NCBI GenBank assembly: GCA_032622095.1
Contig: CP136065.1
Span: forward strand, 27,227,141-27,291,140
Length of the DNA stretch: 64,000 nt
Reading direction: 5' to 3'
Source of the DNA: Siphonodentalium dalli
Taxonomy: Eukaryota; Mollusca; Scaphopoda; Gadilida; Siphonodentaliidae
This document shows, piece by piece, positions 9,386 through 63,478 of this stretch. Under the pieces are notes generated by a model that did not search any database, had not been told where the DNA came from, and saw only the letters and a list, made by a program, of their open reading frames with translations. A program made the position numbers and the translations under genes. The stretch's first letter is position 1, and each line of letters begins with the position of its first letter.

Positions 9386-9388
9386 GAC

Positions 9389-38910: not shown

Positions 38911-39019
38911 GGGGCCCATAGTCCAAGTCTTCTTGTACTAAAACCAGCTAAACACCAGCATCTCGCCATACCAATATCTTAGCTGGTTTTAGTACAAGAA
39001 GACTTGGACTAAGGGGCCC
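38911..39019. repeat. 109-bp foldback
   Basis: Inverted arms of about 40 bp: tagtccaagtcttcttgtac...accagcta and its complement, bounded by GGGGCCC on both sides. The sequence just to the left (cagttatatgaaagcatgca...) resembles about 27650-27680 in the SDR intron. Confidence 0.85.
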
Positions 39020-39789
39020 GGTGTTCTGATAATATAACAACCATGCCGTGTCCATGCGAGTATGCCAATATTAGGCAATACGGTTTAGTTCTTTGCGATT
39101 CACAGTACAGTTGTGCTTGACATATAAGCCCATGCACATGGCTCAGCCATTTTACAATTCCGGCGGCAGAGATTTTTTAATGTGGCTGGCGTTAGAAATA
39201 ATATGGCTGGCGGCGGCTTGTGGCCAATATGGCTGGCGGCTGCGGCGTGCGATGGCGGCTTCGGGCTCTACCTGCAGATAAATGTGTCTCATTTGTAGAA
39301 TGAGGTACCCAGAGGGTGCTCAGCCGCACAGCAGGCTAGCATCAACAAATTCACCCTCTGTGACCTCATTCTGATTTAGGCCTCATCTGGGAAGCTTACT
39401 TTTTCCCTTCTGCGAAGTTTCTATATCGCCTAATTTGCAGATGAAAAAATGCATAATCGAGGTGACTAATGGATAAACATCACAAACTTCAAATGGGGAA
39501 CTTCAATCTGATCCTAGCTAGGTATCCCATAGCTGTTGAGGCCTAAGCAGAATGGTGTCACTAAATTCACACTCTGGGGACCTCATTCTGCAAACGACAG
39601 AAACACTATTTGCAGGCTTCGGAGCTAGGTCAATTGACCTGCATTGGTTACGTATTGGTTACGTCTAAGATCCCAATAACGGTAAAGTAGGACGGTGACT
39701 GGACAGAAGTCAATTGTGTCTCTTCCTCTTTTGCTGGCACTAAAGCAGCAAGGAAAGTCTCTGGTGATTCAGACAAGACAATATTATCC
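39020..39789. other. Gene-free DNA with small inverted repeats
   Basis: ggctggcggc-type low complexity at 39180-39260. A hairpin agaatgaggtacccagaggg / ccctctgtgacctcattct lies at 39297-39372, with a third related block at about 39570-39595. No gene was recognised. Confidence 0.5.
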
Positions 39790-40559
39790 TCCAGGTGGTT
39801 CCAGTCGATTGTAGTGCGAATAAAGAAGGAGTTCTCGTACTTCTTGACCAGGTTTGTTACTTGGTGGTCACTAAATGTTTTTGATGTTATCTTTCTGGTC
39901 TCTCTCTCTCTCTTTGGTGAGGAAGTTGTCAGATGTCATAGCTGTTACCAGGTTCATTACCACCTTATAAAAGTACGACAGCCGCTGGATTTTTCTCCTC
40001 TCGTATATTGGTGGTAGTTTCAGTTCATTGAGTATGGTCGTCATTGATCCAGGATGGTAGCTTCGATAGTCATTTTTAATGAATCTCCCTGCCTTCCTCT
40101 GTATTTTTTCTAGGAGATCGATTTCTTTTTGTTGGTATGGATCCCAGATGGTTGAGCCGTAGTCCATGATGGACCGGACAATAGCGATAAGTAGGCTATC
40201 TGTTTCAGTTTCCCTGGCATGAACTTTAGGTTGCGGCGTAGAAAGCCCAGTGTTGAGTTTGCTTTCTTTGATATATTGTTATTATGAGTTGTCCATTTTA
40301 GGTAATTTGAACATTCTAGTCCGACGTATCTTTTGTGTGCCACTTGTTTTAGGTTTTGTCCATCTAGTTCGTATATCTTGTCTAGTTTCTTGTGCATGCT
40401 CATCACGTAGCACTTCTTTGCATTGAAGGACATTCCCCAGTTTTTGGCCCATCCTTCGAGACTCTGCAGATATTCTTGCAGCTGATGTTGGTCCTTGATG
40501 CTGTTTATTTGCCGGTAGAGTAGGCAGTCATCGACAAAATATTTAATGGGGGTTTCCAT
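39790..40559 (-). pseudogene. LINE reverse transcriptase C-terminal fragment
   Basis: Two minus frames joined by a shift near 40140. The upstream frame (149 residues) has FVDDCLLYR in place of the catalytic F-A-D-D-x-x-L, then LQEYLQSLEGWAKNWGMSFN and KCYVMS. Then ANSTLGFLRRNLK, the usual 'KAN..LGFLRRN' block, and IAYLSLL. The downstream frame has MDYGSTIWDPYQQKEI, LLEKIQRKAGRF and IYERRKIQRL, the standard thumb region. The 5' half is absent. Jockey/Rex-like LINE. Dead copy. Confidence 0.85.
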
Positions 40560-40914
40560 GCAAAATTTACAGAGCGCCTTGGAAGTGTAATTCTAGGGGG
40601 TGGCTTGATGGAATATTGATAATATTATAGATTTATTTGGTGCATGGATATGAGCTCCAAAAATGCTATATTTTTCATGTTTATATATTTATTTTGAATT
40701 TTATATTTAATTTTCAAAAGTACGGTAGGTCAAGAATTGTAATTACAGAATTCTCAAAATAAATTTTTAAATATAGAAAATATTAATAATTTTAGTGGAA
40801 AGTTATGAACATTCATGCAATGATACCATGGTTTAGTTCCCAGATATCTGTTCATGTATAACTTTTGATCTTGAAATTTGCATGTAAATTAATCCTCATT
40901 CATAATTAGTCACT
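40560..40914. other. Gene-free AT-rich DNA
   Basis: Nothing recognised. Confidence 0.4.
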
Positions 40915-41063
40915 TGTCTGCCAACTTGACTTTGTAAGCCAAAGCATTATCTTATATATGCGAGGCTCCCTATGGGAGACTCTCACATATATAATATAAG
41001 AGAATGCATTGGCACAAAATATTTAATACTGCACCAGCGCAGCTCCGGTCATGAAAGGGTTAA
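40915..41063. mobile_element. TTAA MITE fragment, family 2, copy 3 (inverted)
   Basis: Reads ttgactttgtaagcc, one hairpin (aagcattatcttatatatgc ... aagagaatgcattgg), atactgcaccagcgcagctc, then CATGAAAGGG-TTAA (41060-41063). Inverse order of 26621-26750. Confidence 0.8.
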
Positions 41064-41999
41064 CTTAATCCATTGTACATGTTATGCTACAGAATAAAAT
41101 AATATAGTGTACCTGAACTCATGTATGCAGAGGTGACTGTGTCTGGTATGTGAATGTGATATGCTACCGTGCATGGTATGTCTGAATGTGCCAAAATTCC
41201 CACATACAATCACAGCTGATATGGAATCTAGGTAACAACATACCATGTGCTGGCTCCTGTTTACTAAGTGGGCCACTTATGCCCTCAAAAAGAATTTTAG
41301 AGTTATCTGCCTTTGTATAGAGTTATCCATCCTAAACTATCCTCAGTTATATTTTTATTTGTTGTATTATTGCCAAAAACAATTGATAATGCGTCGTGGT
41401 GGTCTGAGCCCTGTTCGGTTCCGGGGATAGAAAAATAGGTTTTTTAAATAGGTTTTTTAAATACGTTAAGGGCCAGACCCGAGTTTTGCATAAATGAAAA
41501 CATCAAAATTACAAAATATATAAAATTATTTATGGATGGCTGTCTTCCTAAATGACAATAATCATGAAATAAATTAGCTAAATAAAATAAGTGTTCTGTC
41601 ATGACCAACAGATAAAAATATCATTGACAAGTACAGAGCAATATCATATTGTCAGAACTAGTATTACACGAAGAATCAGAATTAGGTAAGAATGTATTCC
41701 TTCTACTCAGGTATCTCAATGATAGTGATGCCATACTACAAAACAAGATTAAATGGATTTCTTTTATATAAGAAACGCTCTGCGAAGTAAATATGGAAAG
41801 TGCGTGGCATCACCAGTCACCACTAAGCTCGGAGGTACGAAACGCTTAAAAGCGAAATTAATAGAACACGCAAGTTGCCTCTTCGGCAATCTAAATATGA
41901 CTACTTCAAGTCGTGCCATAATTTGTCGAAACAAAGGATTGAGCCGATACTTAGTATATATGCCCTCTCATCTGCTATTTATTTACTGACATTTAGAAA
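41064..41999. other. Gene-free DNA
   Basis: The 78-residue plus frame at 41753-41989 precedes LINE-derived sequence and may be part of the same relic, but it has no motif I can name. Confidence 0.4.
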
Positions 42000-42510
42000 A
42001 GCCAAACAGATTACCGGTGGAGCAATGCAGATGGAATAAAAGTACATGTAAAGACACGAAATGCCCGTTATGTGGCGAAAATATATGTGATGAATACCAT
42101 TTTGTTATTTTGTGTACAGAACTTAACGACCTGCGAGAAACTATATCCCCGAAGTATTACCGTGAAAATCCTAACAGAAACAAATTATACAGATTGTTGT
42201 CACTGCTAAATATAAGTATATTGAAAAGAGTGAGCATTCTTAAAATTAGAGTTTAAAAAGTTACCATGCCGCAAGTATTATATTATATTATATATAGTAT
42301 AAATATCATATGACTGATATATCATTTAAGAAAACATATTTCTGAATGTATTAGCATTAATTGCTTTTATTATTAATGCCATATAATATGATGGAAGTAT
42401 TTATTGATATACATACATGTTATGTATTGTTTGTATATATGTATATACGTTCTAGCATGTTGCAACTTCGATGTTGACTTTGCAAATAAGCAATTCAATT
42501 CAATTCATAT
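42000..42510 (+). pseudogene. LINE 3' end: Cys/His-rich C-terminus and tail
   Basis: 42005-42256 encodes LPVEQCRWNK, then CPLCGENICDEYHFVILC, then LRETI. This is the C-x-x-C...DE-x-H-F-x-x-x-C block found at the C-terminus of many LINE ORF2 proteins, ending in a natural stop. An AT-rich 3' UTR follows and ends near 42490 in caattcaattcaattcat, a short-repeat tail. The reverse transcriptase is not preserved upstream. Confidence 0.65.
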
Positions 42511-42925
42511 ATGAACTGTAATTTTGAAAAAGTTATATTTTACAGGCGTCCTTGGTAGCTGAAAACATAGGAATTTTATATATTGTTCATGCCATAAACG
42601 TACAGTAAATGGGGTAAAACTTTATAACGAGTTCACGGTTCTTAATATTGTGTCATAATAATTGCTTATGCCAAACTTTAAAAAGAAAGACTGATTTTAA
42701 CAAATTCCATTTTAGATGTCAGGGAAGTTTGGTAAAACATGCGTCTGACACTTGTACAAACGTTGTACGCCACCAACAAACTTATTATTCAAGTCAGTGT
42801 GTAGGTGGCAATAGGGACCGCTCATCGTTATTCTATCCCTGGTGTGGTACAAAATAAAGAGCGTAAGAAAAGAACATCAGAAACAGCTGGAAAACTGCTA
42901 TGACTTTGATGAAACCTTTTTTTCA
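42511..42925. other. Gene-free DNA
   Basis: No feature recognised. Confidence 0.4.
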
Positions 42926-43085
42926 GTGTATAATTCCTGTAATACGTCCTATATGGCGTATATTTAACAAAATATGTTGGTAGATCAGAATTTCGTATCT
43001 TTGTGGACATACCTTGTCCCTCTCCCCGCATTATATATTGATCATAATTTGGAGATCCATATGTGTCATACGTCATTCAGTTTCA
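42926..43085 (+). repeat. 160-bp dispersed repeat, copy 2
   Basis: Matches 20833-20992 in the same orientation (cctgtaatacgtcctatatg ... atccatatgtgtcat ... cattcagtttcaac). Confidence 0.75.
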
Positions 43086-43815
43086 ACTATCTCTTGGCGA
43101 CGATGATCTCGACCAATGTAAGTGGCCGACCAATACGGACGAATCTTGGTGTATAGGGTGTGTCTGTCGTTCTCTCTGCTGCACTGAGGGCTGGGTGGCT
43201 TTTTCACTTTTGCGAAACATATTTACATCTGAAAACATATGTACATATATTGTTTGTCGCCCCATCACATCTTCGGACTGCAGGTTCGCATCTCAGATTA
43301 TTGTAAGACCGTGACTTTTTGAACTTATGCCCTATTCATTCATATCCGGTGGACTTGTCGTTGGTTGCTGTGCATGATGTTGTGTTTGTAAACAACTTTC
43401 AGCTGACAATATTCAGCTCCCAATCGTCGTGTTTCTAGCCCAAACCAAGTTCCATTGTCTTCTTGTGTAGTTTCTAAGATATATTGTCCATCTTTTCTTC
43501 GCATTTTGATCTTGTGATTGTATTCCGAAAAAATAGATATTTGATGAGCAAGAATTTATCACCAGCCGCTGCCAAGCACGTGTTTGCATCAAACTCGAAA
43601 AGTGTAACATTTTGACGAACTGTTAGGTGATAATTATTGCCATAAACTACATACGGGGAGTGTAAAGAAGCAGACGACCAGGTGATCGGGTGAGTACGTT
43701 CCAATTTACAACCCACCCGAAAGGATCCAAGGCGATTTTTATCCATTACTGACTGATTGCCCGACAAGAAACTACGGAATTTGACACAGATTTCTACGTA
43801 TATTTTTGATAAACA
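43086..43815. other. Gene-free DNA, possibly LINE 5' region
   Basis: No protein motif was seen on either strand. Because the hAT MITE at 43824 interrupts sequence continuous with the LINE frame from 44430, part of this stretch may be that LINE's 5' UTR. Confidence 0.35.
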
Positions 43816-43823
43816 CTTCTATG

Positions 43824-44419
43824 CAGTGTCCGCGCTGAATCAATACTTATATTTGCCAAATGAAAATATATTTTGTCAAATTATTTTACCATTTGGCAAA
43901 TGCTATCCCTGATAGTATCATTTTCTGCAACCTTAAGTCTTTTATGTTTCGAAACTCGCGGTTTGAACGACTTTTGATATCGATAGAAAAACCGATAGTT
44001 AATAATTAATTATACTCGCATCTCTATTGTGGTTTGTCATACAACAATAAGCCAATCACCGAACAATACCATGGTAGAAAGGTTGCTTCATCAGAAGGGC
44101 ACATCACAGAAGGATTACCTATGTAAACACCACCATCACACAAAATAATAGTAATCCCCCAACCATCGGTACTAATGCTATGAGAATAACTACATCTTAA
44201 TAGAGGTGTTAACTTTTCCTAAACCTCATAAAACACCACTAATATAATTATGTTGTAAGAGTTTCCTGAAATGTTGGTCTTAATTGGCCAATATTTTTCA
44301 ACTTGCTTGAGGAATTAAAAAGTGACTTGCCAAAAACCTTTGCCAAATTAAAATATTTTTTGCCAAATGTGAATTATTATTGCCATTGGAAAATTTGGCA
44401 ATTGGCAGCGCGAACCCTG
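43824..44419. mobile_element. hAT-type MITE with 8-bp target duplication
   Basis: Ends CAGTGTCCGCGCTG and, inverted, CAGGGTTCGCGCTG. Flanked by CTTCTATG on both sides (43816-43823, 44420-44427). Eight-base duplications and CAGNG termini define hAT transposons. The 596-bp element has no coding sequence and carries several ttgccaaat/atttggcaa motifs near both ends. Confidence 0.9.
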
Positions 44420-44742
44420 CTTCTATGTTGCAGAATCGTTATAGGTTGGAGACACCACTTGGCAGTCTAAAGCGCGGCAGAAGTTTAATTATCATTTTCC
44501 TGCTATTGTAATCTGGGGATATAGCATTAGATCCAGGCCCAAGACATCCCAGCTTTTCATGTGGGAACTGCAAGAAAGCTGTCCCCAGCAGAAATAAGCA
44601 AGAAGAAAGCAAATAAGTATTGCAATGCAAATCTTGTGAATAATGGTTTCATCACAACTGCACACATGGGTTGATCTTTATCAAGGAAACGAACGATTGA
44701 ACTGTAAAGTGTGCAACTAAAACAACATACAAATGTTGATGA

Positions 44743-45183
44743 GGACAGGAATGCTTCCACGATCACTGACACTACTAATACTATCCTCATTGGACAAGAA
44801 TGATTCCACGATCACTGACACTACTAATACTATCCTCATTGGACAAGAATGATTCCACGATCACTGACACTACTAATACTATCCTCATTGGACAAGAATG
44901 ATTCCACGATCACTGACACTACTAATACTATCCTCATTGGACAAGAATGATTCCACGATCACTGACACTACTAATACTATCCTCATTGGACAAGAATGAT
45001 TCCACGATCACTGACACTACTAATACTATCCTCATTGGACAAGAATGATTCCACGATCACTGACACTACTAATACTATCCTGATTGGACAAGAATGATTC
45101 CACGATCACTGACACTACTAATACTATCCTCATTGGACAAGAATGATTCCACGATCACTGACACTACTAATACTATCCTCATT
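44743..45183. repeat. 49-bp minisatellite, nine copies
   Basis: Unit ggacaagaatgattccacga, tcactgacactactaatac, tatcctcatt. Nine copies, almost identical. The first has gcttcc for attcc and one has cctgatt. It lies between the PHD-finger part and the endonuclease part of the LINE relic, presumably expanded from LINE sequence. Confidence 0.97.
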
Positions 45184-45297
45184 GGAAGTGATAATGACAT
45201 AAATGATGACAGGAAACAGCAAGGAAATCCAGTAATCGCAAGATCACCTTACTGAATATAAACTCCCAGAGTGTCAAAATAAGAAGCATTTACTTAA

Positions 45298-45792
45298 AGG
45301 CACGTGCGGCCTTAATTGTCGAAAATATTCATATTTGTTCCAAACACCGTAAACAGAAAAACATTAAAACGCATACAGTTCCGTTCATATATACCATGAC
45401 CATCGCGTAAACAGCATGTTATCATAAAGACCTACTATATTTTACCTAAGCAAGAGCCTGATTGTGTTACAGAAGACAGCACAATGCTACTGGCTAACCA
45501 CACACAAATGGCATAAACGCTCTTTATTAGTTCCATATCAGGTATTCACCAACAAAGAACGCTCTTTATGTTTACCATCATAATATAAACAAACACCAGA
45601 AAAGTAACTTTTTATGCTTTTGTTTACATAACAATGGTCAAATATATGACCATAACATACTGTTTATGCGATATTTCTTATTTGTATACGGACAAAGTCT
45701 ATCTACATTTTGATGTTCTTTCTGTTTGTGGCGGTTTTTGACGGGTGGAGATTTTTTTCACAGGATACCCACCGCCAAGGCCAACCGTACCT
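45298..45792. mobile_element. 495-bp TTAA MITE (AGGCACG family), copy 1
   Basis: TTAA at 45294-45297 and 45793-45796. The ends are AGGCACGTGCGGCCTT and, inverted, AGGTACGGTTGGCCTT. It splits the LINE endonuclease frame. Removing it and one TTAA restores continuity from KIRSIYF into VLTEDDQPNF. It matches 60233-60730 along its length. Internal landmarks are aacgctctttat and atactgtttatg. Non-coding. Confidence 0.92.
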
Positions 45793-47028
45793 TTAAAGTG
45801 CTGACAGAAGATGACCAACCAAATTTTATTGTTGGAACTGAATCATGGATGGATAGTCCAGATAATAGCAGTACATACCTACCTACACACAAGTATAATA
45901 TACTAAGAGGCAGGGGAAATGACATTACCAAGCGTGGTGTTTCCATAGCATTCAGGCAAGGAATACAGGCGAGCAAAGCATACGAGCTTGAAACTGATTG
46001 CGAAATAATCTGGACAAAAGTGAAGTTGAAGAAAAGCAGAGACCTCTACATTAGCTCTTACTACATACCACAGAATAATATTAATATAGCCTAGATATAC
46101 TAGAGAGTTCCATTGGAGACACTTGGTGACAAAATCAACCCGCAACGTTTGATTTTAGCTCGATATTTCAATCTGTCAGGATGGAATTGGAAAGACAACA
46201 TATTGGACTCAACAAAATGCAACTCCCCAAAACTCCACTAAAAATTTAAGGATATAATAGTTGATAGTAGTTTATGACAAATAGTTGAAGAGACGATTAG
46301 AAGAGAATATACACTAGACCTGATAGCAACAAATTATCCACAAGCTGAGTGGCATTCCAGGCATTTCACACCATGGTATTCAAAATGTAGAGATAGAATT
46401 TCCAATTATGCAGAAGCAAAGGAAATTCCAATGTATGCAAATGCTGACTGGTCTGAATTTAGCAAACTGATGACTTCAACTTGGTGATGTATGATATTGA
46501 TGGGAAACGTTTTTTGTGATAAAAGTTTTGGGGATGGGTTTGAAATCTGCAGCCAATATCTTCCAAAGTATAATCAATGATGTGACAAATTGCATTCAAA
46601 CAGAAGGTTTCCCAATCGGGAATTACTTGGATGATTTAGCCGGGGCTGTGGTTGGCACAAAAGCTGATTTGGCTATTGAAACCTTGGGGCGATTTTTTTG
46701 GGTTTGAAAGAAGCAGTGGAGAACTCGTGTAGAATATCCTTCAAAATGGTTTTCTAGTGTGTTCTATTCGATACCGAAACAGTACGTTACAAGTAACATG
46801 TAACAAGTAAGATATACGGAATAAGATACACACGCTGGTTGGTTGGGTAATGTCATCTTTAAAATCTTTACTAGGGAAATTGTATCAGCGTGTGTTAGAC
46901 CAGGGCGTATAGTTATGGCCAGAATTTTGATGTGGCTTCGTACATTTAATACAAGTAATAAACAGTCACAACAACAATCTAAAGTATGTCAAAACGGTCT
47001 AACCTTGTGGAAACATTTCCTCTTTCAG

Positions 47029-47224
47029 TACAATGGAATCTCCATAATGCCTTGAGTACATTGGAATCTCCATAATGCCTTGAGTACATTGGAATCTCCA
47101 TAATGCCTTGAGTACATTGGAATCTCCATAATGCATTGAGTACAATGGAATCTCCATAATGCCTTGAGTACAATGGAATCTCCATGATGCCTTGAGTACA
47201 ATGGAATCTGCATAATGCCTTGGT
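47029..47224 (+). repeat. 28-bp minisatellite, seven copies, from RNase H coding sequence
   Basis: Unit tacaatggaatctccataat plus gccttgag. The first unit is in frame with upstream coding sequence and spells YNGISIMP, a conserved DIRS segment. The remaining six units are tandem duplicates. 28 is not a multiple of 3, so the frame rotates. Confidence 0.95.
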
Positions 47225-47437
47225 AAGTCTGGTCTAAACCAGATGAGATTGTGGCTTCCGACGCCAAATTGTCATCTTGTGGATGTATATGAGAGAATGA
47301 ATATTACCATTGTAAAGGTCCATCCTGGAGATATCTGCACATAAATGAGTTGGCAGTGTTGATGATAATTGTTTGTCTAACATTGTGGAAGGACAAGTTG
47401 TTCGGTAAAATGATTTTCGTCAGATGCGATGTCTCAA

Positions 47438-50400
47438 CTGTAGATTTGGTGAATATGGTTTCCACAAGACACTCCATTCTCCAGACTTGTCTGTAGATTT
47501 GGTGAATATGGTGTCCACAAGACACTCGATTCTCCAGACTTGTATGTAGCTTTGTTGAATATGGTGTCCACAAGACACTCATTTCTCCATGCTTGTATGT
47601 AGCTTTGGTGAATATGGTGGCCACAAGACAATCGATTCTCCAGGCTTGTCTGTAGCTTTGTTGAATATGGTGTCCACAAGACACTCCATTCTCCATGCTT
47701 GTCTGTAGCTTTGGTGAATATGGCGTCCACAAGACACTCCATTATGCAGGCTTGTCTGTAGCTTTGGTGAATATGGTGGCCACAAGACACTCCATTCTCC
47801 AGGCTTGTCTGTAGATTTGGTGAATATGGTGTCCACAAGACACTCCATTCCCCAGGCTTGTCTGTAGCTTTGGTGAATATGGTGGCCACAAGACACTCCA
47901 TTATCCAGGCTTGTCTGTAGCTTTGGTGAATATGGTGTCCACAAGACACTCCATTCTCCAGGCTTGTCTGTAGCTTTGTTGAATATGGTGTCCACAAGAC
48001 ACTCGATTCTCCAGGCTTGTCTGTAGCTTTGGTGAATATGGCGTCCACAAGGCACTCCATTCTCCAGACTTGTCTGTAGCTTTAGTGAATATGGTGTCCA
48101 CAAGACACTCCATTCTCCAGGATTGTCTGTAGCTTTGGTGAATATTGTGTTCACAAGACACTCCATTCTTCAGGCTTGTCTGTAGCTTTAGTTAATATGG
48201 CGTCCACAAGACACTCCATTATGCAGGCTTGTCTGTAGCTTTGGTGAATATGGTGTCCACAAGGCACTCCATTCTCCAGACTTGTCTGTAGCTTTGTTGA
48301 ATATGGTGTCCACAAGACACTCCATTCTCCAGGCTTGTCTGTAGCTTTGTTGAATATGGTGTCCACAAGACACTCGATTCTCCAGGCTTGTCTGTAGCTT
48401 TGGTAAATATGGTGTCCACAAGACACTCGATTCTCCAGGCTTGTCTGTAGCTTTGGTAAATATGGTGTCCACAAGACACTCGATTCTTCAGGCTTGTCTG
48501 TAGCTTTGGTGAATATTGTGTTCACAAGACACTCCATTCTTCAGGCTTGTCTGTAGCTTTGGTTAATATGGCGTCCACAAGACACTCCATTATGCAGGCT
48601 TGTCTGTAGCTTTGGTGAATATGGTGTCCACAAGGCACTCCATTCTCCAGACTTGTCTGTAGCTTTGTTGAATATGGTGTCCACAAGACACTCCATTCTC
48701 CAGGCTTGTCTGTAGCTTTGTTGAATATGGTGTCCACAAGACACTCCATTCTCCAGGCTTGTCTGTAGCTTTGGTAAATATGGTGTCCACAAGACACTCG
48801 ATTCTCCAGGCTTGTCTGTAGCTTTGGTAAATATGGTGTCCACAAGACACTCCATTCTCCAGGCTTGTATGTAGCTTTGGTGAATATGGTGTCCACAAGG
48901 CACTCTATTCTCCAGGCTTGTCTGTAGCTTTGTTGAATATGGTGTCCACAAGACACTCGATTATCCAGGCTTGTCTGTAGCTTTGGTAAATATGGTGTCC
49001 ACAAGACACTCCATTCTCCAGGCTTGTATGTAGCTTTGGTGAATATGGTGTCCACAAGACACTCCATTCTCCAGGCTTGTCTGTAGCTTTGGTGAATATG
49101 GTGTCAACAAGACACTCCATTCTCCAGGCTTGTATGTAGCTTTGGTAAATATGGTGCCAACAAGACACTCCATTCTCCAGGCTTGTCTGTAGCTTTGTTG
49201 AATATGGTGTCAACAAGACACTCGATTCTCCAGGCTTGTCTGTAGCTTTGTTGAATATGGTGTCAACAAGACACTCCATTATCCAGGCTTGTCTGTAGCT
49301 TTGGTGAATATGGTGTCAACAAGACACTCGATTCTCCAGGCTTGTCTGTAGCTTTGTTGAATATGGTGTCAACAAGACACTCGATTCTCCAGTCTTGTAT
49401 GTAGCTTTGTTGAATATGGTGTCCACAAGACACTCCATTCTCCAGGCTTGTCTGTAGCTTTGTTGAATATGGTGTCAACAAGACACTCGATTCTCCAGTC
49501 TTGTATGTAGCTTTGTTGAATATGGTGTCCACAAGACACTCCATTCTCCAGGCTTGTCTGTAGCTTTGTTGAATATGGTGTCAACAAGACACTCGATTCT
49601 CCAGTCTTGTATGTAGCTTTGGTAAATATGGTGCCAACAAGACACTCCATTCTCCAGGCTTTTCTGTAGCTTTGGTGAATATGGTGTCAACAAGACACTC
49701 CATTATCCAGGCTTGTATGTAGCTTTGGTAAATATGGTGTCAACAAGACACTCCGTTCTCCAGGCTTGTCTGCAGCTTTGGTAAATATGGTGTCAACAAG
49801 ACACTCCATTCTCCAGGCTTGTCTGTAGATTTGGTGAATATGGTGTCAACAAGACATTCGATTCTCTCCAGGCTTGTATGTAGCTTTGGTAAATATGGTG
49901 TCCACAAGACACTCCGTTCTCCAGGCTTGTCTGCAGCTTTGGTAAATATGGTGTCAACAAGACACTCCATTCTCCAGGCTTGTCTGTAGATTTGGTGAAT
50001 ATGGTGTCAACAAGACATTCGATTCTCTCCAGGCTTGTCTGCAGCTTTGGTAAATATGGTGTCCACAAGACACTCCATTCTCCAGGCTTGTATGTAGCTT
50101 TGGTAAATATGGTGTCAACAAGACACTCCATGCTCCAGGCTTGTCTCCAGCTTTGGTAAATATGGTGTCAACAAGACACTCCATTCTCCAGGCTTGTCTG
50201 TAGCTTTGGTGAATATGGTGTCAACAAGACATTCGATTCTCTCCAGGCTTGTCTGCAGCTTTGGTAAATATGGTGTCCACAAGACACTCCATTCACCAGG
50301 CTTGTCTGCAGCTTTGGTAAATATGGTGTCAACAAGACACTCCATTATCCAGGCTTGTCTGTAGCTTTGGTAAATATGGTGTCAACAAGACACTCCATTC

Positions 50401-52003
50401 TCCAGGCTTGTCTGTAGCTTTGGTGAATATGGTGTCCACAAGACACTCGATTCTCCAGTCTTGTCTGTAGCTTTGGTGAATATGGTGCCAACAAGACACT
50501 CCATTCTCCAGGCTTGTCTGTAGCTTTGGTGAATATGGTGTCAACAAGACACTCCATTCTCCAGGCTTGTCTGCAGCTTTGGTAAATATGGTGTCAACAA
50601 GACACTCCATTCTCCAGGCTTGTCTGTATCTTTGGTGAATATGGTGTCAACAAGACACTCGATTCTCCAGGCTTGTCTGCAGCTTTGGTAAATATGGTGT
50701 CAACAAGACACTCCATTATCCAGGCTTGTCTGTAGCTTTGGTGAATATTGTGTTCACAAGATACTCCATTCACCAGGCGTGTCTGTAGCTTTGGTGAATA
50801 TGGTGTCCACAAGACACTCCATTCTCCAGGTGTGTCTGTAGCTTTGGTGAATATTGTGTTCACAAGATACTCCATTCTCCAGGATTGTATGTAGCTTTGG
50901 TGAATATGGTGTCCACAAGACACTCCATTCTCCAGGCTTGTCTGTAGCTTTGGTGAATATGGTGTCAACAAGACACTCAATTCTCCAGGATTGTATGTAG
51001 CTTTGGTGAATATGGTGTCCACAAGACACTCCATTCTCCAGGCTTGTCTGTAGCTTTGGTGAATATGGTGTCAACAAGACACTCTATTCTCCAGGATTGT
51101 ATGTAGCTTTGGTGAATATGGTGTCCACAAGACACTCCATTCTCCAGGCTTGTCTGTAGCTTTGGTGAATATGGTGTCAACAAGACACTCCATTCTCCAA
51201 GCTTGTATGTAGCTTTGGTGAATATTGTGTTCACAAGACACTCCATTCTCCAGGCTTGTCTGTAGCTTTGGTGAATATTGTGTTCACAAGAAACTCCATT
51301 CTCCAGGATTGTATGTAGCTTTGGTGAATATGGTGTCAACAAGACACTCCATTCTCCAGACTTGTCTGTAGCTTTGGTGAATATTGTGTTCACAAGACAC
51401 TCCATTCTCCAGGCTTGTCTGCAGCTTTGGTGAATATGGTGTCAACAAGACACTCGATTCTCTCCAGGCTTTTCTGTAGCTTTGGTAAATATGGTGTCCA
51501 CAATACACTCGATTATTCAGGATTGTCTGTAGCTTTGGTGAATATGGTGTCCACAAGACACTCGATTCTCCAGTCTTGTATGTAGCTTTGTTGAATATGG
51601 TGTCCACAAGACACTCCATTCTCCAGACTTGTCTGTAACTTTGGTGAATATGGTGTCCACAAGACACTCCATTATGCAGGCTTGTATGTAGCTTTGGTGA
51701 ATATGGTGTCAACAAGACACTCCATTCTCCAGGCTTGTCTGTAGATTTGGTGAATATGGCGTCCACAAGACACTCGATTCTGCAGGCTTGTCTGTATCTT
51801 TGGTGAATATGGCGTCCACAAGACACTCGATTCTTCGGGCTTGTCTGTAGCTTTGGTGAATACGGTGTCCACAAGACACTCGATTATGCAGGCTTGTCTG
51901 TAGCTTTGGTGAATATGGTGTCCACAAGTCGCTCGATTCTTCAGTCTTGTCTGTAGCTTTGGTGAATATGGTATCCACAATAAACTCGATTATACAGGCT
52001 TGT
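47438..52003 (+). repeat. 53-bp minisatellite, about 86 copies, from RNase H coding sequence
   Basis: Unit ctgtagctttggtgaatat, ggtgtccacaagacactcc, attctccaggcttgt (53 bp, a few 55-bp units with ctctcc). The first unit in frame reads TVDLVNMVSTRHSILQTCL, directly after CDVS of RNase H. The last unit reads VNMVSTINSIIQACL and runs directly into LRDICFVF. Only one unit is needed for the protein, so about 85 are expansion. Sub-blocks with shared variants (tatgtagc, gtgtcaac, ttatcc, tgcagc) show regional homogenisation. The minus-strand open frames of up to 208 residues arise from this array and are not genes. Confidence 0.97.
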
Positions 52004-52299
52004 CTGAGAGACATATGCTTTGTGTTCGCTGCAGAACGTTTCGAAATAAAAAGGGTACATATTGTCAGTGCAAATAATTGTTTACCAGACATTTGTCTCG
52101 ATGGGATGATCGTTTGCCTTTTCGTAAAAGTAGTGAAGAATTCAAGCAGTTATATATAGTTATATATAGTGGCTGACAAAAAAGATATTCTTTTCAAAGC
52201 ATACGCTGATGGTACCAACCAGTATCACAGTGCTGCGCCCAATTTTTGAGCAGATCGTTTCGGTCCACGGATACGATCAGAAATTATTTAAATGCAGTG

Positions 52300-52960
52300 T
52301 ATATGTAGTTGCTGCACATTAGATTAGGTCCTAACACCGATGAATTTGCATTTCCAACTAAACTCACATTAAAAGGCATAGTGAGAAAAAACCCCACACG
52401 GCGTAAAACATGGGCTTTACCTCTTATATCCGATGTATTGCTTCAAATTCACGATACACTGAACTTCGAGAGCTCCCTATATATAGAAGCAACAGTTTGG
52501 AGCACGCTTCTGCTTGGATTCTTCATTATTCTCAGAAAATCTAAACTAGTTCCAGAAGCGATCAAAAATTTTGATCTAAAAGACCAGTTGACATGAGCTG
52601 ATATTTATATCACACAAGATGTGGTAGTTATCAAATGGTCCAAGTCCATACAGTTCGGTCAGAAAGTTCCGCGACTTCTAGTTCTTGTCATACCGGGTTC
52701 AAAACTGCCTTTCGTCAAATATCAATATTAATCCACGGAGATTCCCATAATCAGGCATTCATGCAAGACATGGATCGCAAATCAGTGTCTTATTCACGAT
52801 GGGGAAGCTGGGAATTTAACGCATTAAAAGTCTTTCGGGAGAATTGATTCAACTGATGAGAGATTGGTTTAGCGATGCATACAACATATGTCCCACTTAC
52901 ACAACAGAAGATAAATTCCATATAGCAAAAAACAATGAGATTGTATTTTGTCAGCGTCAA
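52300..52960 (+). pseudogene. Tyrosine recombinase relic of the DIRS-like element
   Basis: A 95-residue open stretch has LTLKGIVRKNPTRRKTWALP, DVLLQIHDTLNF, and FFIILRKSKLVPEAI (the box A region with its catalytic Arg), then NFDLKDQL. After a stop and shifts come KWSKSIQFGQKVP, then SYSRWGSWEFNALKV (box B, Arg kept, the usual His not seen) and IQLMRDWFSDAY near the region of the nucleophilic tyrosine. Length and order fit YR retroelement or Crypton-type recombinases. Position after DIRS RNase H favours the former. Confidence 0.8.
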
Positions 52961-53221
52961 GCATATCTTAAAACTACTTTCTTTCACTTGCAGGACGAAG
53001 GAAGACAGAGAGCAGGCCGAAGACAGAGGAGAGTCCTAAATTGGCAACCGATTATATCGTGAAGTGTGTCTCCAATGTAGACTTCTTAAAGGTTAGGGCA
53101 TTCAGATGATACAATATGCAACAATTATCTAGATTGGTAGCTACAGGTGTAATAACATGAGGGTGGGCACTCATATCATTCGTGTGGGCACGAATAACAC
53201 TGAAGACACCACTCGAGAAGA

Positions 53222-53245
53222 TTTAAAGATACGGGCGGCGTTGGC
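53222..53245 (+). repeat. Solitary AGGCACG-family MITE end
   Basis: TTTAAAGATACGGGCGGCG matches the inverted right end of the 60233-60730 element with its TTAA. No second end was found nearby, so it is a remnant. Confidence 0.6.
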
Positions 53246-54269
53246 CAACTAGATAAATTCTATATAAGTGGTCATACTTGTGTTTGCTGTAATGTTTATA
53301 CATGCTATGTCAGTGCCATGCTAAATGTTGAATTTGTAATTGTCGATTTTGGTTTGTGTGCTGTATATGAGTTCAAATTTGCATGATCTTGTTTTGATAA
53401 ATGTTTCTCCATGTTGTTTTAGTTTTTGGTCTGTCCTATATCCAGCCAGGATGTCTGTTAAATTAATAAACAATATATATAATCAGAGATCTCAAGTTTT
53501 TCTCATCGAGTACTACAACATTAATCATGATTTTAGAATTTGTTCACGCATGGTTACTGAAGCAAGCACATTGAAGCAATGTATACTCTTACTGATCCAG
53601 TGACACATAGCGCCTCCGTAAATATGATATATGTATTATAAAATGAATGGTCATGGTTAATACGATTCAGAGGCATCAAATGATTTGAGCTCTCAGTTAT
53701 GACGAAGTGCGATTCGTATGAATAACTCGTAGTGTTGTTGTTGATGTTATTGTAATAATAGTCTCAGAGATTTGCTGCGATATGATGATGATGAATATGA
53801 TGATAATGATAACGATGATGGTGCTGAATATGATGATGATGATGATGGTGATGATGATGGTGATGACGATGATAATGCTATTAATACATTAGGAAGGCGT
53901 TGATTATATTTACACCAAGAAGTTCTTGTATATATTATACATATGCTGTTATATTCTCATTCTGGTGTATATATTTTCTCCTTGTACTTCTCAATATCTA
54001 TATTTGATCAGAGAATAAAAACATTATGAGCGATAGTCGACATTGGCCGTATGGTTGTCAACTGAACGATCCAAAATTATTCCGACCGAATTGGGTATAG
54101 GCTTTAAAAAGCTGAAACAAACACATTTAGTAGAATAGCAATTATACAGGTTGGTTCCGTTGTTGGTGGGGGTGTTGAATTAAGACCATTGCCATATTAT
54201 ACTAATCTGTAAACAAAATTAGATAAGCCTTTGTTCCTACCATCAGTACCATGTATACATGATTTTCAT
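53246..54269. other. Gene-free DNA with GAT microsatellite
   Basis: An imperfect (GAT)n run lies at 53779-53880. No gene was recognised. Confidence 0.5.
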
Positions 54270-54440
54270 TAATATAAGGTCTAGGCTAGAATAGGCTTTC
54301 TGGCCACTGCGAATCTCCCAATGCGGCATCCTGTTTGTCGTGGGGTGCACCCCGTAATAGATTATATAGGAGTCATCGGGCTACCAGAGTGGTCATATCA
54401 CATGAGACATCGACCTGTGGGCAAGGCTTTGGTAATTGCT

Positions 54441-54782
54441 TTAACCCTTTACCCAACAAACCGGCCAAAATCGGTCAAATAAAGCTTCAACAGCCTAAAA
54501 TATCTTCGGTCTGTCTCAATACAAATATGGATATCATTGGAACCGGCTCCTTGACCACATTGTGATAGTTACAGTTATGCCCTGTGCCAATGCATTCTCT
54601 TATATATGCGAGTCGACCATAGGTCGCCTCGCATATATAAGAGAATGCTTTCTTTAACAATTTTATAATTTTTAATGTGTTAAGCCAATGCATTCTCTTA
54701 TATATGCGAGGCGACCTATGGTCGACTCGCATATATAAGAGAATGCATTGGCACAGGGCCCTTCTGTTGGGTAAAGGGTTAA
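54441..54782. mobile_element. TTAA MITE with paired hairpins, family 1, copy 2
   Basis: TTAA at both edges (54441-54444, 54779-54782) with CCCTTTACCCAACA ends. Same orientation and left arm as 22313-22703. The two hairpins (about 54582-54648 with its end trimmed, and about 54686-54753) stand closer together because the central spacer is deleted. Confidence 0.9.
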
Positions 54783-54859
54783 TGGCGCGGGGCTTAATGA
54801 AAACACGCAATAAAGAGCGTGAATCTGTTAAGTCGTGTTGATGAAAAAGGGTAGAAAAG

Positions 54860-55225
54860 ACATATTATGGACTTGTTTGGGTACGTGAAACTGGCAGGTT
54901 AGTATTTAAGCGCTATGCCAACTGAAGTAACGTTGCATTCTACTAACATCGCCGAAAATCTCAAGCAAATCGACCGTACCACTCTCAAGAAACATCGTAT
55001 GAACTACGCTCAAATATAAATATTTACTTCTGGGTTCGCGACGCAACTATCGGCGATAAACTAAAGAAAACGATTTCGTCAACGCGAGTCACTGCATTTA
55101 ATTAAAATATGAAAATGACGGTGTGTGTTGTCAGTTTGGATATATTTGTGAAAATAACTACTTTGAGCAAAATTATTCACCATTTCTATATGAGCGCCCT
55201 ACCGGAGTGTTTCACATCACTGAGA
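54860..55225 (+). repeat. Dispersed repeat shared with 23.6 kb and 60.9 kb, copy 2
   Basis: Matches 23610-23960 (gtacgtgaaactgg, atcggcgataaacta, tttcgtcaacgcgagtcact, ccctaccggagtgtttca). It sits within the LINE ORF1 relic between the leader and the ORF1 start. Confidence 0.75.
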
Positions 55226-55770
55226 TTCAAATAATACCTATATGGGCCTATTTGTGTTTTGGAAATAAGTTCAATATGAACTTATTTTCAGGAGAACATG
55301 CTGCCTCAGTACTTGGTTCTTGGTGTTGATACGGGTGTCAAGTGACCTTCTGTATTTGGCATTGATAAAACGCTACAACGTATTGATGGACGATTGAAAG
55401 TTGTCAAACCAACCAGGACTGGGCCAATAAGTGTCTCTATCCTGATTGCAGTGCAGTTCACGGGGTATGGTCACGGCCAGGAAATTTGTAAAATAATAAA
55501 TAAATAAAAATAAAATAAAATTTAAGAAATCATACGTGCACGGTGTTCTATTTCTGATCATGACCATTACGAGTGTACGAACCAAACATAATTTTCAAAC
55601 TCAAGATCCACATGCTGCAAAGGATCGTATTCAAGATGTAAGGCTGTGAAACATTTATGATATATAGATGCTTAGAACATAGTTGGTGATCGACCATCAA
55701 TTCCACAGGTTCGTGTTACTCCGCTGTCGTTTCTACGAAAAAGTATGTTGATGCCAGCAGTCAGACATGT

Positions 55771-56754
55771 ATGAGATATTTCAACTGCTACACAAACTAT
55801 CAAGCCACTTGGCGGTCTGCGCTCCAAAATACACATAACAATATTCACTTTTGAATTTTTCCATGTATCAACATAGGACGATAAATATTTGAACTACCTC
55901 TCTGCGGGCATAATATGTTCCAGAAAGACGCATTGAAGTCATAAAAATACAACTTTGAAACACGATGTTTGGGCCCAAACAAATAACATCCATCAGAAAA
56001 GAGCGTCCCTTGTTAGTCTATTCCTGATTTGGTAGAAATAAAGAGCGTATATTTCACTTATGTGCGGGGGGATTGAATACAGTTTGAAAAATTTCTGTGA
56101 CCATGGCAAGTATTTTCCAGAGTATACGAAGCCGGTATATCAATAGTTCGTGTAATTGTCAACTTATATTATACCTCCTTCCAAATTACGAAGACAAAAT
56201 TTAGAAACTCGACTGAGCCATGTCCGTTTAAATCAGAAGATAGCAGACAAAATAGTCAAGTTCGGAAACATCAGAAAATTGTGAGATGGAGTATCAGAAA
56301 AAATCGGAAGAAACCCCAAAACAAAAACAGAAAAAGTTAAGAGATCGCGATTACACGGAAGAGAAGATCAAAGTTGAAATGGAGAAGTATATATTAAGCT
56401 TTGAAGGAAGATAAAATCTTCACTGAAATCTGGAATCGTGCATGTGACTATTTTATTGTAGAATATAATGTCATGGTTAATGTGTATATATTATGATGGT
56501 TGTGAACTAAAACAATTACAAATTGTTTAATAAATATTCCCCCGAATCTGCATTGTGGATCTACGTGAATACAACTCATATCGCACGAACATATATGGCG
56601 TGTGTACCTCCTTCCTCAGCCCGACGTATTTGCAATATCGTGTACTATAACATTATATTGGTGATGATGTATAGTAGAGTTGTTCCACTTTCATCCACAT
56701 TCTGTTTCAAGAACACATGATCATGGAGCTTCGTGGTGAAAATACAGCCTCTTC
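55771..56754. other. Gene-free AT-rich DNA
   Basis: No recognised gene or repeat. Confidence 0.4.
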
Positions 56755-57120
56755 TCCCGAAAATCCGCACATTATCTGCTTTTATGACTAAAATAGAATA
56801 AAACTTTTGTTTTATAGAATCGCCTAATTTTGAGTAGATAATGTGCTGAAAATGGTAGCGATTTAGAAACATTATCGACTCATAATGGGGAAATTCTAAG
56901 CAGATTATGTGCGGACAATGACACAAATAAGCCAACTTACAGACTTTTCAGGTGTACGCTCTTTGACATGTGTTTTCACCGTGGTCCGCATAACAAAACG
57001 AAATAATGATGGATATGATCCAATATCACCTCAGTTCAGATTAAAATAATCACATTATGTACCTATTTCACATTAAGGGTCGATTATGTGCGTATTTGTG
57101 CGAGGATATGTTGGAGAATA
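56755..57120 (+). repeat. Dispersed repeat of the CAGCCTGTTC family, copy 3 (no terminus)
   Basis: Matches 12420-12760: agaatcgcctaattttgag, taagcagatta, gacaatgacacaaataagcc, ggtgtacgctctttgac, gcgaggatatgttgg. The left terminus is missing here. Confidence 0.75.
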
Positions 57121-57216
57121 TGTTGGAAAATAGCATCAATAATGATAACAGGGTTCAAAGCCGTGATATGACCTAGCGCCTAAAATACGACGTTAAACAC
57201 TTACTAAACTACACCT

Positions 57217-57703
57217 ACGTTCCACAGTAGCGATGGCATAGTAGGTGCGACAATTAATTATGGTAGAGTTTGGTGACAATTGGTCAACATAATTTATATG
57301 CCATAGGGAGTCGTGTCGCGCGCCGCATATTCGCACAGTGAGTCGACTGACCAATTAACCCATTGAGTTTCACCAAGGTTGATCTCTACTCATTACGTTT
57401 AGCCACATTGTATTCTCTACGATACATAAAATTGCACGACCGATCGTTCAGAATTGTCTTGTGTGTTAGCATTAAAAATATAACATTGCGTGTTGAGTAA
57501 CGATCAACAGCGACAAGCCATTCGGTTTGATAAATCATTGAGATGTCGATCTCGACGCTGATAGAGCTTGGAAAAGACTCATTGTGTGAATGTGCGGCGG
57601 GCGACATGTCTCGCTATGGCACAGGAATATGACGACCAATTGTCACCAAAATTGCACCATAATTAATTGTCACGCCTACTATGCCATCGCTACTGTGATA
57701 CGT
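57217..57703. mobile_element. About 480-bp MITE with 65-bp inverted ends
   Basis: The left end CACAGTAGCGATGGCATAGT...gacaattggtc (57223-57282) pairs with the inverted right end gaccaattgtcacc...CCATCGCTACTGTG (57633-57697). Flanking acgt on both sides is palindromic and may belong to the arms. The central minus frame of 73 residues has no motif. Confidence 0.85.
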
Positions 57704-58461
57704 GTGTCCGCAGCCAATACATACGGACATGAGTAGAAGCGAAGACACGAAGTAGTATTATAGCCTAAAACTCGAAAGCCGATATCTGACCAATCAAACC
57801 TATATATGGTAGAGTGTCATGGTCTGTCCTATCGTTACTCTCTATATTATTATGGATGTGAACTAAACAACAAGAAAACCATAGTCAGAAATGGTAACGC
57901 GCTCAAGATAATATATTATGATTGTAATTATAGAATCTTTTTCATTTCTGTTATTTGTAATTGGCATAGCTTATCACAAACCAAAAATCAACATTATTGA
58001 CATAACGTAAACGCCAATAAACGAAATTGAAATTCTCAACTACACCTTTTACCTGGCTCGGCCTCGGGGGTCGAACTACAGCTCGGCCTCGCACTACAAC
58101 TTCTAATGTGTCCCAATAATTAACATTCTATCAATAGAACCCCAGCGCTATGGCAGCGCCCAGGCGAAACAAGAATGTGTACATTAGTATATACGCGGTG
58201 CGCGTAATAACGTCGACCGCCAAGTCTGAAACATGTACTCTGATAGATCGCATGATCAAAGTTTTATTCCGCCTATATAGAGGAGGCAGTTACAAAGGCC
58301 AGGTCAACGTCTTGCATCTTTGTTTACCTTATATTTAACATAACCACGGTGGTTCAGATGGACGCAGTTGAGGGGGGGATCCAATATTGCAAATGACCCA
58401 GTCGTCGATTAGCAAATGTTTACTAACATATTTGCGAGAAAGAAAAAAAAGAATATTATAG
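57704..58461. other. Gene-free DNA
   Basis: ctcggcctcg-type short repeats near 58045-58095. Otherwise nothing recognised. Confidence 0.4.
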
Positions 58462-58775
58462 GGTATGACGCTTTATTTCAATATACACTTACATCATTAT
58501 TACATAATACATGTACAGATACATTATATTGTATATTCGAGGGGGGGGGTGACAAAATCAGACTAGACTGTCTTCCCCTTAACGTTAAGTAGATACTACA
58601 TGTATGGTGGGCGGTCACATTTTCTTGTACAATGTACGGCTATATATGTATAACATAATGGTTGCATGTACATGATATGCACGGAGAGTGTATTTATAGA
58701 TGAAATACTTAGGGACTACTCGATGGTTTGTCTCTTTCTGGATAGAGGCTATACATTAATGGTCGAGTATAGGAA
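58462..58775 (-). mobile_element. LINE 3' UTR, second copy of the 7.1-9.4 kb family
   Basis: Aligns with 7160-7480 in the same orientation: tttatttcaatatac, tattcgaggggg, agactgtctt, ggcggtca, cttgtacaatg(t/c)acggctat, and ctactcgatggtttgtctct. It stops before the coding region, so it is an extreme 5' truncation. Confidence 0.85.
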
Positions 58776-59534
58776 TGATTACTGTCCGTGATATGTTGTT
58801 TAAAAAAATGTATGTTGTGAACGCTGCTTTCCAGGGGCGGTGGTGCAGGAGGGACGCACAATGGCTCCTCAACTGATGCACGCGCAGATGCATAATTTAT
58901 ATTTTATTGGGCAGTGCCGTTCTGAAGATCATATCTTGAGTACTTCCACAGACCTTGTTGCTGTGTTACGAACTTGATGAAATGAAAAAATACTTATAGC
59001 CTTGTTCACTTTTACATTGTCCCACCCGATTTAGCACCAAATAAGTAAGAATTTCGTAGCCGAATTTCCGGCCGTGCCAATTGCCTATATGTCGAGGGAC
59101 CTCGCGCGCATAACTATGGCTCAGAAATGATTGTTCTTGGGGGAGAGAACTATTGTCTGAACACTATACTGTGTAATGTTCAACCTGAATCGACATATGT
59201 TAAGGCATCTATACTAAGGCATCATTGCTGAGTAGTTATCCCATAGGAAATGTTCAGATAAACATTTCCCTGATTAAATGGGCCTCTTTCTGTACTTTCG
59301 TCTGCTTTTATCATCTTAATATCCCTCCAAGTGAATAATATATCATTCCTATGTATACTTTTATAACTGAATGTGAGAATCCATTCAGTATAGCAAGGGT
59401 TAATTATAGGAAAAACCATCAGGATGCAGTTATATATAGTAGGTTTAATTTCAGGCTCCATATATACAGGTGAGAAACGTGACAACATCGTGTATATCAC
59501 AAGAAATACATACAGAGTTCGTGGTTCTTCGACT
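58776..59534. other. Gene-free DNA
   Basis: No recognised feature. Confidence 0.4.
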
Positions 59535-59538
59535 TTAA

Positions 59539-59958
59539 AGGCCCACTAAATTTTCGAATCACCAGATCACATTATATACAACATATTCCATGTTATATAC
59601 CATTTGAAAGAGGAAGCTCCAACACATTGTATTATTAACTGATCCGGTCAAATAAACTGGGAATATGTTGTTTTTGTCGAGGTACCAAGGTGTTTCCTGC
59701 ATTTAATTTTGATCCGGACTGTACTATAAAGTCTATTATACTCATTGGAAGGGGAATAACTCTATCTCTTAGTTTGAATTTTGATGCATTCTGGGTTGAA
59801 AAGGGGGGAAGTCTTGGAATGAATCTCTATCACTTGGTGGACAGTCCTAGGCCACAGCTGCTTCGTATTCTGGTGGAATATATATATGTTTGGTTCCTCT
59901 TCCAAATGGTATATAATATGGAATAATGTATCTGGGCATTCGAAAATTAAGTGGGCCT
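59539..59958. mobile_element. 420-bp TTAA MITE (AGGCCCAC family), most intact copy
   Basis: TTAA at 59535-59538 and 59959-59962. The ends are AGGCCCACTAAATTTTCGAA and its near-complement, continuing as long imperfect arms (tataccatttg, agaggaa). Decayed relatives lie at 30814-35010 (split) and 37804-38160 (inverted). Confidence 0.9.
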
Positions 59959-60232
59959 TTAACTGGCAAATCGGTAGCCAGACAATTTCCCCACCAAAAA
60001 AAATGTAGCATTCAGCTAATATTACCAAAATATTTACACTCAAACATGCATTTGCGTCGGTTGGTTGAAATCGCGTCGCGCGATATTGCGCACGAGCCCC
60101 AACTTTATTTCATGTTGTATGAATGCAACTTTCCATCAGAATAGCGTTGAAAATGGCCGCCACATGTTCTTTTAATCTACTAGCTGAGTGTAGATAAAAG
60201 GAATCGATGTTGATTTTGTTGTGTTCCATTGA

Positions 60233-60730
60233 AGGCACGGGCGGCGTTCGTTGCAGAAATATTCATATTTGTTCAAATCATCAAGAGAAGGAATATTAAA
60301 ATATATATAGTTTTGTTCATATGCCAATCATAATCAGCGCGTAAATAGTATATTGTCGTCAAGACGTACGATGGTGAACGTAATCAAGAGCCTGCTCGTG
60401 TTACAGCAGTTTTGCTTCTGTTTACATAACACAGCGCAATTCTATTGGTTAATCACACACAAATGATATAAACGCTCTTTATTATTTCCATATCAGGAAG
60501 ACAATAACAAATAATGTTCTTTATGTTTACCATATCCGGATCTAAACAAAAGCCAGTTACATAACAAAGGGGAAACATTTGACAAAAACATACTGTTTAT
60601 GCCATATTTCTGATTGGTATAAGAACAAAGTCTGTCTATATTTTACTATTATTTCTGTTTGTGGCGGTTTTTTTTTTTTACGGAGGTGAATATTTTAACA
60701 GCATATCCACCGCCAACGCCGCCCGTATCT
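60233..60730. mobile_element. 498-bp MITE (AGGCACG family), copy 2
   Basis: Flanked by TTGA on both sides (60229-60232, 60731-60734). The ends are AGGCACGGGCGGCGTT and, inverted, AGATACGGGCGGCGTT. Homologous to 45298-45792. TTGA instead of TTAA on both sides shows use of a near-cognate target. Confidence 0.9.
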
Positions 60731-60849
60731 TTGAGCTTGGATGCAATTGGTCTGACTATCTTTTGTCATACCAACTTGCATCCACATCCATGGTATACTC
60801 CATGGAACGGAAGCAAATCAACATACATTTCTTTAAAAAATCATAACTA

Positions 60850-61055
60850 TACCGACTGTTCCAGTTCACTGAACTACGCGCAATTGTAAATAATTGCAAC
60901 TTAATTTGGGACGAATTATCGCTAATAAACAAACGGCAATGATTCGGCGAACGAGAATGGCTGCAAATAACACATATATAAGAATGATATAGCGTGCTAA
61001 TATAAATATATTTTCTGTTCCCATTCGATCATCGTCGCGGAGTGTTTCAAAAACA
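60850..61055 (+). repeat. Dispersed repeat shared with 23.6 kb and 54.9 kb, copy 3
   Basis: Diverged match: ctgaactacgcgcaattgta, atcgctaataaac, gaatgatatagcgtg, cggagtgtttcaaa. Confidence 0.55.
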
Positions 61056-61077
61056 CTTTGAGGCAGTAAATACAGAT

Positions 61078-61498
61078 GGATTTTTTACCCTGTGCCAATG
61101 CATTCTCTTATATATGCGAGTCGACCATAGGTCGCCTCGCATATATAAGAGAATGCATTGGTCTAACAATTTTTTATAATTTTTTTTAAATAAATGTTCC
61201 TTACATTTTTTAGGACATAAAATAAAAAACATCCATTACCCTGCAGGGAGCCCCACACATATATAGAAGCATATAGAAGAGTGTCGTCTGCTCATGTTTG
61301 TCTGGGGCTCTGTATGGGTGAAATTATAAAATTGTTAAAGAATACAAGAAAAAATTATTAAAATTGTAAAAAATTGTTAGGCCAATGCATTCTCTTATAT
61401 ATGCGAGGCGACCTATGGTCGACTCGCATATATAAGAGAATGCATTGGCACAGGGTAAAAAAAATCCCGACTTACGACTGGATTTGATATGGCGGGTC
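61078..61498. mobile_element. Hairpin MITE, family 3, copy 2 (left end lost)
   Basis: Begins inside the left arm at gattttttaccctgtgcc. Two complete 67-bp hairpins (about 61094-61160, 61380-61447), shared centre (ccctgcagggagccccac, agaagagtgtcgtctgc), and right end ttgatatggcgggtca. Confidence 0.85.
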
Positions 61499-63430: not shown

Positions 63431-63478
63431 GATATATCATTCGAATTATGATTGTGACGAGTGTGTAATTTATGTATA

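Follow-up and report, generated by a model that had tools for sequence, protein, structure and literature searches.

How does a short run of transposon codons become a long minisatellite, and at what point in the history of a locus does this happen? The question is raised by a 53-bp tandem array lying within the RNase H remnant of a retrotransposon in the scaphopod Siphonodentalium dalli, whose genome comprises 2.23 Gb in 9 contigs. The stretch of DNA analysed, referred to here as the window, is 64,000 nucleotides long (C5:27227141-27291140). Tandem Repeats Finder placed the array at 47438-52006, with a period of 53, 86.1 copies, 91% matches and a score of 7358. Wraparound alignment to the consensus unit resolved 47438-52003 into 86 complete units with a total length of 4566 bp, of which 82 measure 53 bp and four measure 55 bp; the same alignment showed that the four longer units all have a TC insertion in common. 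The last full unit ends at 52003 and is followed by three further matching bases. The coordinates given by the first-pass annotation were thereby confirmed as exact, and its unit count as right. The figures for this and the other arrays come from one assembly, and exact copy numbers may be off; chance is ruled out as an issue for the 53-bp array. Its unit, CTGTAGCTTTGGTGAATATGGTGTCCACAAGACACTCCATTCTCCAGGCTTGT on the plus strand, derives from RNase H codons that specify T/S-VALVNxxSTRxSxLQxCL.

The RNase H reading frame is interrupted by the array and taken up again, in frame, on its far side. On the left, the frame from 47221 reads HINELAV...FVRCDVS-TVDLVNMVSTRHSILQTCL, and the flank passes into unit 1 as HINELAVLMIIVCLTLWKDKLFGKMIFVRCDVS-TVDLVNMVSTRHSILQTCL. 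On the right, the frame from 51941 reads ...SVALVNMVSTINSIIQACLRDICFVFAAERFEIK, with LRDICFVFAAERFEIK as the in-frame continuation of the last unit. The RNase H protein of the single-segment relative L052 aligns with residues 32-117 up to the first unit and picks up with residues 118-164 in the last. Both junctions were in frame, as had been read from the letters alone.

The remainder of the element was located on the plus strand around the array. Tblastn with reverse transcriptase (RT) pieces of a relative detected, in three frames, an RT/RNase H start remnant of Ngaro-like type (DIRS order) at 46476..47026. This remnant is 5′-truncated, adjoins a LINE, contains stops and frameshifts, and has a 76% DNA match to C3:127223624-127224184. 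Part of RNase H (SKPDEIVASDAKL...HINELAV...FVRCDVS) lies between a 28-bp array and the 53-bp array at 47223..47437, and the rest (LRDICFVFAAERFEIKRVHIVSANNCLPD) lies at 52004..52130. A tyrosine recombinase (YR) remnant in several frames was found at 52165..52935 by tblastn with YR pieces of relatives. All three coding remnants around the array (RT, RNase H, YR) contain stops and frameshifts.

The domain content of relatives was used to classify the element. A relative with a long open RT-RH frame matched RVT_1 (PF00078, E = 2e-11) and the RNase H-like RVT_3 (PF13456, E = 7e-5); no methyltransferase (Dam) Pfam match was found in this frame, and the YR comes directly after it. In the relatives a YR open reading frame lies 3′ of RNase H and ends with a ...HGFRRGGATWAFQ...GDWSSDAYKRYL motif. 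In intact relatives it matched PF00589 with E = 4e-5, slightly under the curated cut-off; a truncated YR piece had no Pfam or PDB match, and longer relatives gave PF00589. An SGNH/GDSL hydrolase frame follows the YR in relatives (PF13472, E = 1e-8), is present as a remnant in L053, and was not found in the window copy. The element belongs to the DIRS order, since a tyrosine recombinase accompanies RT and RNase H, as seen in the Pfam matches of relatives and in the window pieces that align to RT, RNase H and YR. A methyltransferase may be present downstream of RT/RH in DIRS-like elements and is absent from Ngaro-like ones (PMC9210276; PMC3783388), and amphibian Ngaro elements have an SGNH hydrolase after the YR (PMC9210276). 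Since the relatives have the hydrolase after the YR and the methyltransferase is absent, the element is best classed as Ngaro-like within the DIRS order. The name DIRS given to it at first pass holds at the level of the order and does not extend to DIRS1-like elements, to which Ngaro-like elements are a sister group. In all likelihood the host element is a decayed, low-copy YR retrotransposon. In three Ngaro-like relatives (L060, L061 and L062), RT-RH, YR and SGNH hydrolase each have a frame of their own, overlapping with or adjacent to the next. Their hydrolase resembles the ORF1-encoded protein of PDB 4c1b (E = 4e-8).

The state of the site before expansion was sought in relatives. A genome search with the RNase H stretch yielded 670 first-look candidates, and 150 matches sampled from these were scored. 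Two of the 150 were the window's own two halves; the other 148 all ran uninterrupted through the site. The nearest relatives in DNA, L052 on C3 (77% identity) and L053 on C6, contain at base level one copy each of the 53-bp segment and of the segment that forms the 28-bp array, and the TSVA(L/I/V)VN...LQ.CLREIC block occurs once in each of the relatives listed. In the whole genome the 53-bp unit is tandem as DNA at two places only, the window and C5:29205058-29207940; one lone copy lies at C3:127223314. No array was present at the same site in more distant DIRS copies from C2, C3 and C6 (L056-L059), and small tandem repeats near six further copies (L012, L017 and L027-L030) either lay outside the RNase H block or had 2-5 copies. 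The array is thus a minisatellite derived from a transposable element (TE) in the usual sense: its 53-bp unit, repeated 86 times, is within the range of about 10-100 bp and is homologous to TE sequence that L052, L053 and the remaining scored matches each have once. The first-pass annotation had proposed that the minisatellite can be traced to one exact stretch of a transposon protein, and had suggested asking whether DIRS relatives have a single segment and whether the unit is an unrelated satellite found genome-wide. Both answers upheld the proposal, with flanks that resume exactly on either side.

The length and homogeneity of the array, in a genome rich in minisatellites, would also suit a satellite that already existed and entered the retrotransposon by insertion or capture. 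Against this, the unit matches a run of RNase H codons of which every relative has one copy, and it has no tandem occurrence beyond the duplicate pair. The single-segment relatives refute such an origin, to which we give practically no credence. The array might instead be, or have been, a translated repeat used by the element or the host, an inflated protein domain, since its first and last units sit in the RNase H frame and minus-strand open reading frames of up to 208 aa traverse its units. A unit of 53 bp, however, amounts to 17 and 2/3 codons, so the frame shifts at each junction, and at the first junction QTCL is followed by a TAG stop. Nothing past unit 1 is therefore translatable within the RNase H domain, which refutes a translated repeat for the plus strand, where each frame of the consensus meets a stop every three units. 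On the minus strand the consensus unit is open in all three frames, which produces the long frames mechanically and needs no coding role. Translation of the array is accordingly given a negligible probability. The earlier statement that one domain had been inflated by 4.6 kb stands for the DNA and fails for the protein, given a dead element and a unit that disrupts the frame. No function is evident for the array, which we consider very probably to be a side effect of DNA repair or replication in dead sequence.

The second tandem occurrence lies in a duplicate of the region. A segmental duplication of at least 36 kb (27688..63479, plus strand) contains the 28-, 49- and 53-bp arrays and has its partner at about C5:29191000-29218500, 1.93 Mb away on the same contig. 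Because the homology with C5:29191000-29220900, collinear over 27688-63479, includes much non-DIRS sequence, the partner arose by duplication of the whole region, and transposition of the element does not account for it. Ten aligned flank blocks gave K2P distances of 0.021-0.058, with a median of about 0.029. Distances were highest beside the arrays (4.9% and 5.8%) and 2-4% elsewhere in the duplication. In the partner, a deletion (L051:3990-4060) took the left RNase H flank and fused ...GTTGA into the middle of a unit.

Copy numbers in the window and the duplicate were 86 and 54 for the 53-bp array, 7 and 5 for the 28-bp array, 8 and 4 for a 33-bp array, and 9 and 1 for the 49-bp array. The 28-bp array (47027..47222, plus strand) repeats codons of QYNGISIMP in the RNase H region of the same Ngaro-like element and is tandem only at the two duplicate loci; the 28-bp and 53-bp blocks of the element expanded separately. 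The 49-bp array (44743..45186, plus strand) consists of LINE-type coding sequence just upstream of the element, with units about 98% identical. Its segment occurs just once in the segmental duplicate, and likewise at each of 5 further places in the genome; the array either postdates the duplication or has disappeared from the partner. As the 28-, 49- and 53-bp arrays expanded separately from unrelated coding blocks in neighbouring dead retroelements, the 10-kb neighbourhood could be a local hotspot of minisatellite birth with a regional cause such as fork stalling or break repair, a reading that we regard as doubtful. If it were true, the loss of unit order at about 3% flank divergence would imply a property of the region and not anything in the units.

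Other repeats were observed in the window. The 33-bp array lies at 35348-35612, and a third short array of this kind is present at C5:14498172-14498303. At 31137-34496 there are 129 copies of a 26-bp unit, and the duplicate has 20 copies of a 41-bp unit at the same place. Most of the 26-bp sequence is found within the 41-bp unit, and it looks as though the shorter unit had been re-founded inside the longer one. Arrays related to the 26-bp array also occur on C1, C9 and at C5:26.50 Mb. Low-complexity 18-bp repeats of the AGCAGCGGGTGATACAA type (9523-10081) adjoin a minus-strand RT open reading frame (7532-9559).

To follow the evolution of the 53-bp arrays, we compared the 86 units of the window (array A) and the 54 units of the duplicate (array B). 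In array A, units two positions apart (lag 2, z -7.4) or seven positions apart (lag 7, z -7.2) were more alike than in 400 order shuffles, and edge units were more diverged (P = 0.0005). In array B the lag-1 value was z -10.2, and an exact 5-unit block recurs 11 units apart. Sub-blocks sharing variants, described at first pass, are therefore real, and the lag statistics together with the repeated blocks support evolution by local exchange, which the same annotation had taken to be unequal exchange and which may be of that kind.

Comparison between the arrays bears on the order of events. Substitutions common to A and B numbered 27 distinct against 15.4 expected (P = 2.6e-5), common transversions 18 against 8.7 (P = 1.8e-5), and recurrent substitutions 15 against 5.4. 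Linked combinations were also found in both arrays: the 2-bp TC insertion together with 25A and 51T (units A76 and B22), and GCAG together with A13 (8 and 6 units in the two arrays). The nearest unit in the same array differed at 0.98 (A) or 1.40 (B) positions on average, and in the other array at 2.47 or 2.36. The order of units showed no colinearity between A and B (186.5, compared with 187.2 +/- 1.6 when shuffled; 83 of 200 shuffles were as good). Unit order has been erased by turnover while the flanks diverged by about 3%.

The two copies of the region have the same chromosome and orientation, and a K2P of only 2-6% would be compatible with alleles misplaced by the assembly; they are, however, 1.93 Mb apart in one contig and differ by kilobase indels and TE content, which makes misplaced alleles very improbable. 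Growth of both arrays after the duplication, independently and from a single segment at a recurrent hotspot, would agree with units that are closest to their own array and with the lack of a common unit order. It is opposed by the excess of common substitutions, transversions included, by the linked variants, and by the neighbouring 28-bp array, which is multi-copy in both duplicates too, and we regard it as improbable. A single-segment ancestor would not have handed down the shared pool of variants. The 53-bp array would thus already have been multi-unit before the segmental duplication, unless later conversion between the paralogues mixed their variants; the variants common to A and B could alternatively stem from such conversion.

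The ends of the array were examined for traces of the founding event. With one unit, L052 reads ACATCTGTAGC...GCATGTTTGAGG; the array ends in the window read CAACTGTAG on the left and TTGTCTGAGAG on the right. The ends of the founding segment have CTG in common, or TCTG if the ancestor had T as in L052 and L053. The ends of the 49-bp array have GGA in common, and no clear shared microhomology was found at those of the 28-bp array. In the class described by Haber and Louis, the founding duplication occurs between short direct repeats of 5-20 bp (PMC3389668). The 53-bp and 49-bp arrays resemble this class in ending in CTG and GGA repeats, but the repeats are only 3-4 bp, none is seen at the 28-bp array, and the terminal unit is complete. 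A complete terminal unit also differs from the incomplete one of slipped-strand birth of the Taylor and Breden type. By a simple calculation with equal base frequencies, an end match of at least 3 bp arises by chance at about 5% of junctions. For this reason, and because it falls below 5-20 bp, the microhomology at the ends of the 53-bp array is suggestive only.

A recent review describes slippage followed by unequal exchange (2025; PMC12628747). In the account that we favour here, one 53-bp RNase H stretch would have been duplicated in tandem in a decayed Ngaro-like element; the two copies of (T)CTG that bound this stretch probably served as the site of slippage or of microhomology-mediated repair. 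From two units onwards, unequal exchange, gene conversion or slippage could have enlarged the array and kept it locally homogeneous. The data establish the single-copy ancestor, the exact site, the paralogy of the two arrays, their common pool of variants and the loss of colinearity; how the first duplication took place at the molecular level and which exchange mechanism acts are matters that we infer. The array would already have contained many variant units when a segmental duplication placed a copy of the region (at least 36 kb) 1.93 Mb away on this chromosome. Thereafter the arrays of 86 and 54 units presumably each went through a turnover of their own, to the point where no common unit order was left. 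We put the probability of this account as a whole, an array that arose in a dead Ngaro-like RNase H, grew and was then segmentally duplicated, at roughly 0.9.

In the human genome, 7,276 arrays, or 23% of minisatellites and satellites, are TE-derived (Ahmed and Liang 2012, PMC3389668). As here, part of a TE copy was amplified in tandem, either upon insertion or later, and in most cases at a single locus; most human arrays have few units, whereas the present one has 86, comes from the coding region of a YR retrotransposon and has a segmental duplicate as a time point. Satellites from TE coding regions are known from CR1 ORF2 (chicken HinfI), L1 ORF2 (PROsat) and gag (rye) (Zattera and Bruschi 2022, PMC9659126). 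Their units likewise come from retrotransposon codons, but they have spread as families, whereas the 53-bp array remains local. In Lathyrus sativus, short arrays within retrotransposons occasionally expand into satellites (Vondrak et al., PMC7004042), a process resembling the present one, except that the short array there is in many element copies and here arose in one dead copy. The review of satellites (PMC9659126) contains no occurrence of the DIRS order as a source, and no array derived from a DIRS-order element was found in the literature searched, the coverage of which was incomplete.

The locus reveals no new mechanism; it is a clear and datable case of a known process, in which the remains of a transposon give birth to a minisatellite. 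The evidence for the origin of the 53-bp array is unusually complete. Minisatellites are seldom found with a single-copy ancestor, exact founding ends and a dated split; all three are available here, from the 148 uninterrupted relatives, the base-level junctions and the duplicate flanks as a clock. The 49-bp array, with nine copies in the window and one in the duplicate, brackets a birth or a loss, and the pair of 53-bp arrays provides a gauge of the speed at which unit order is erased.
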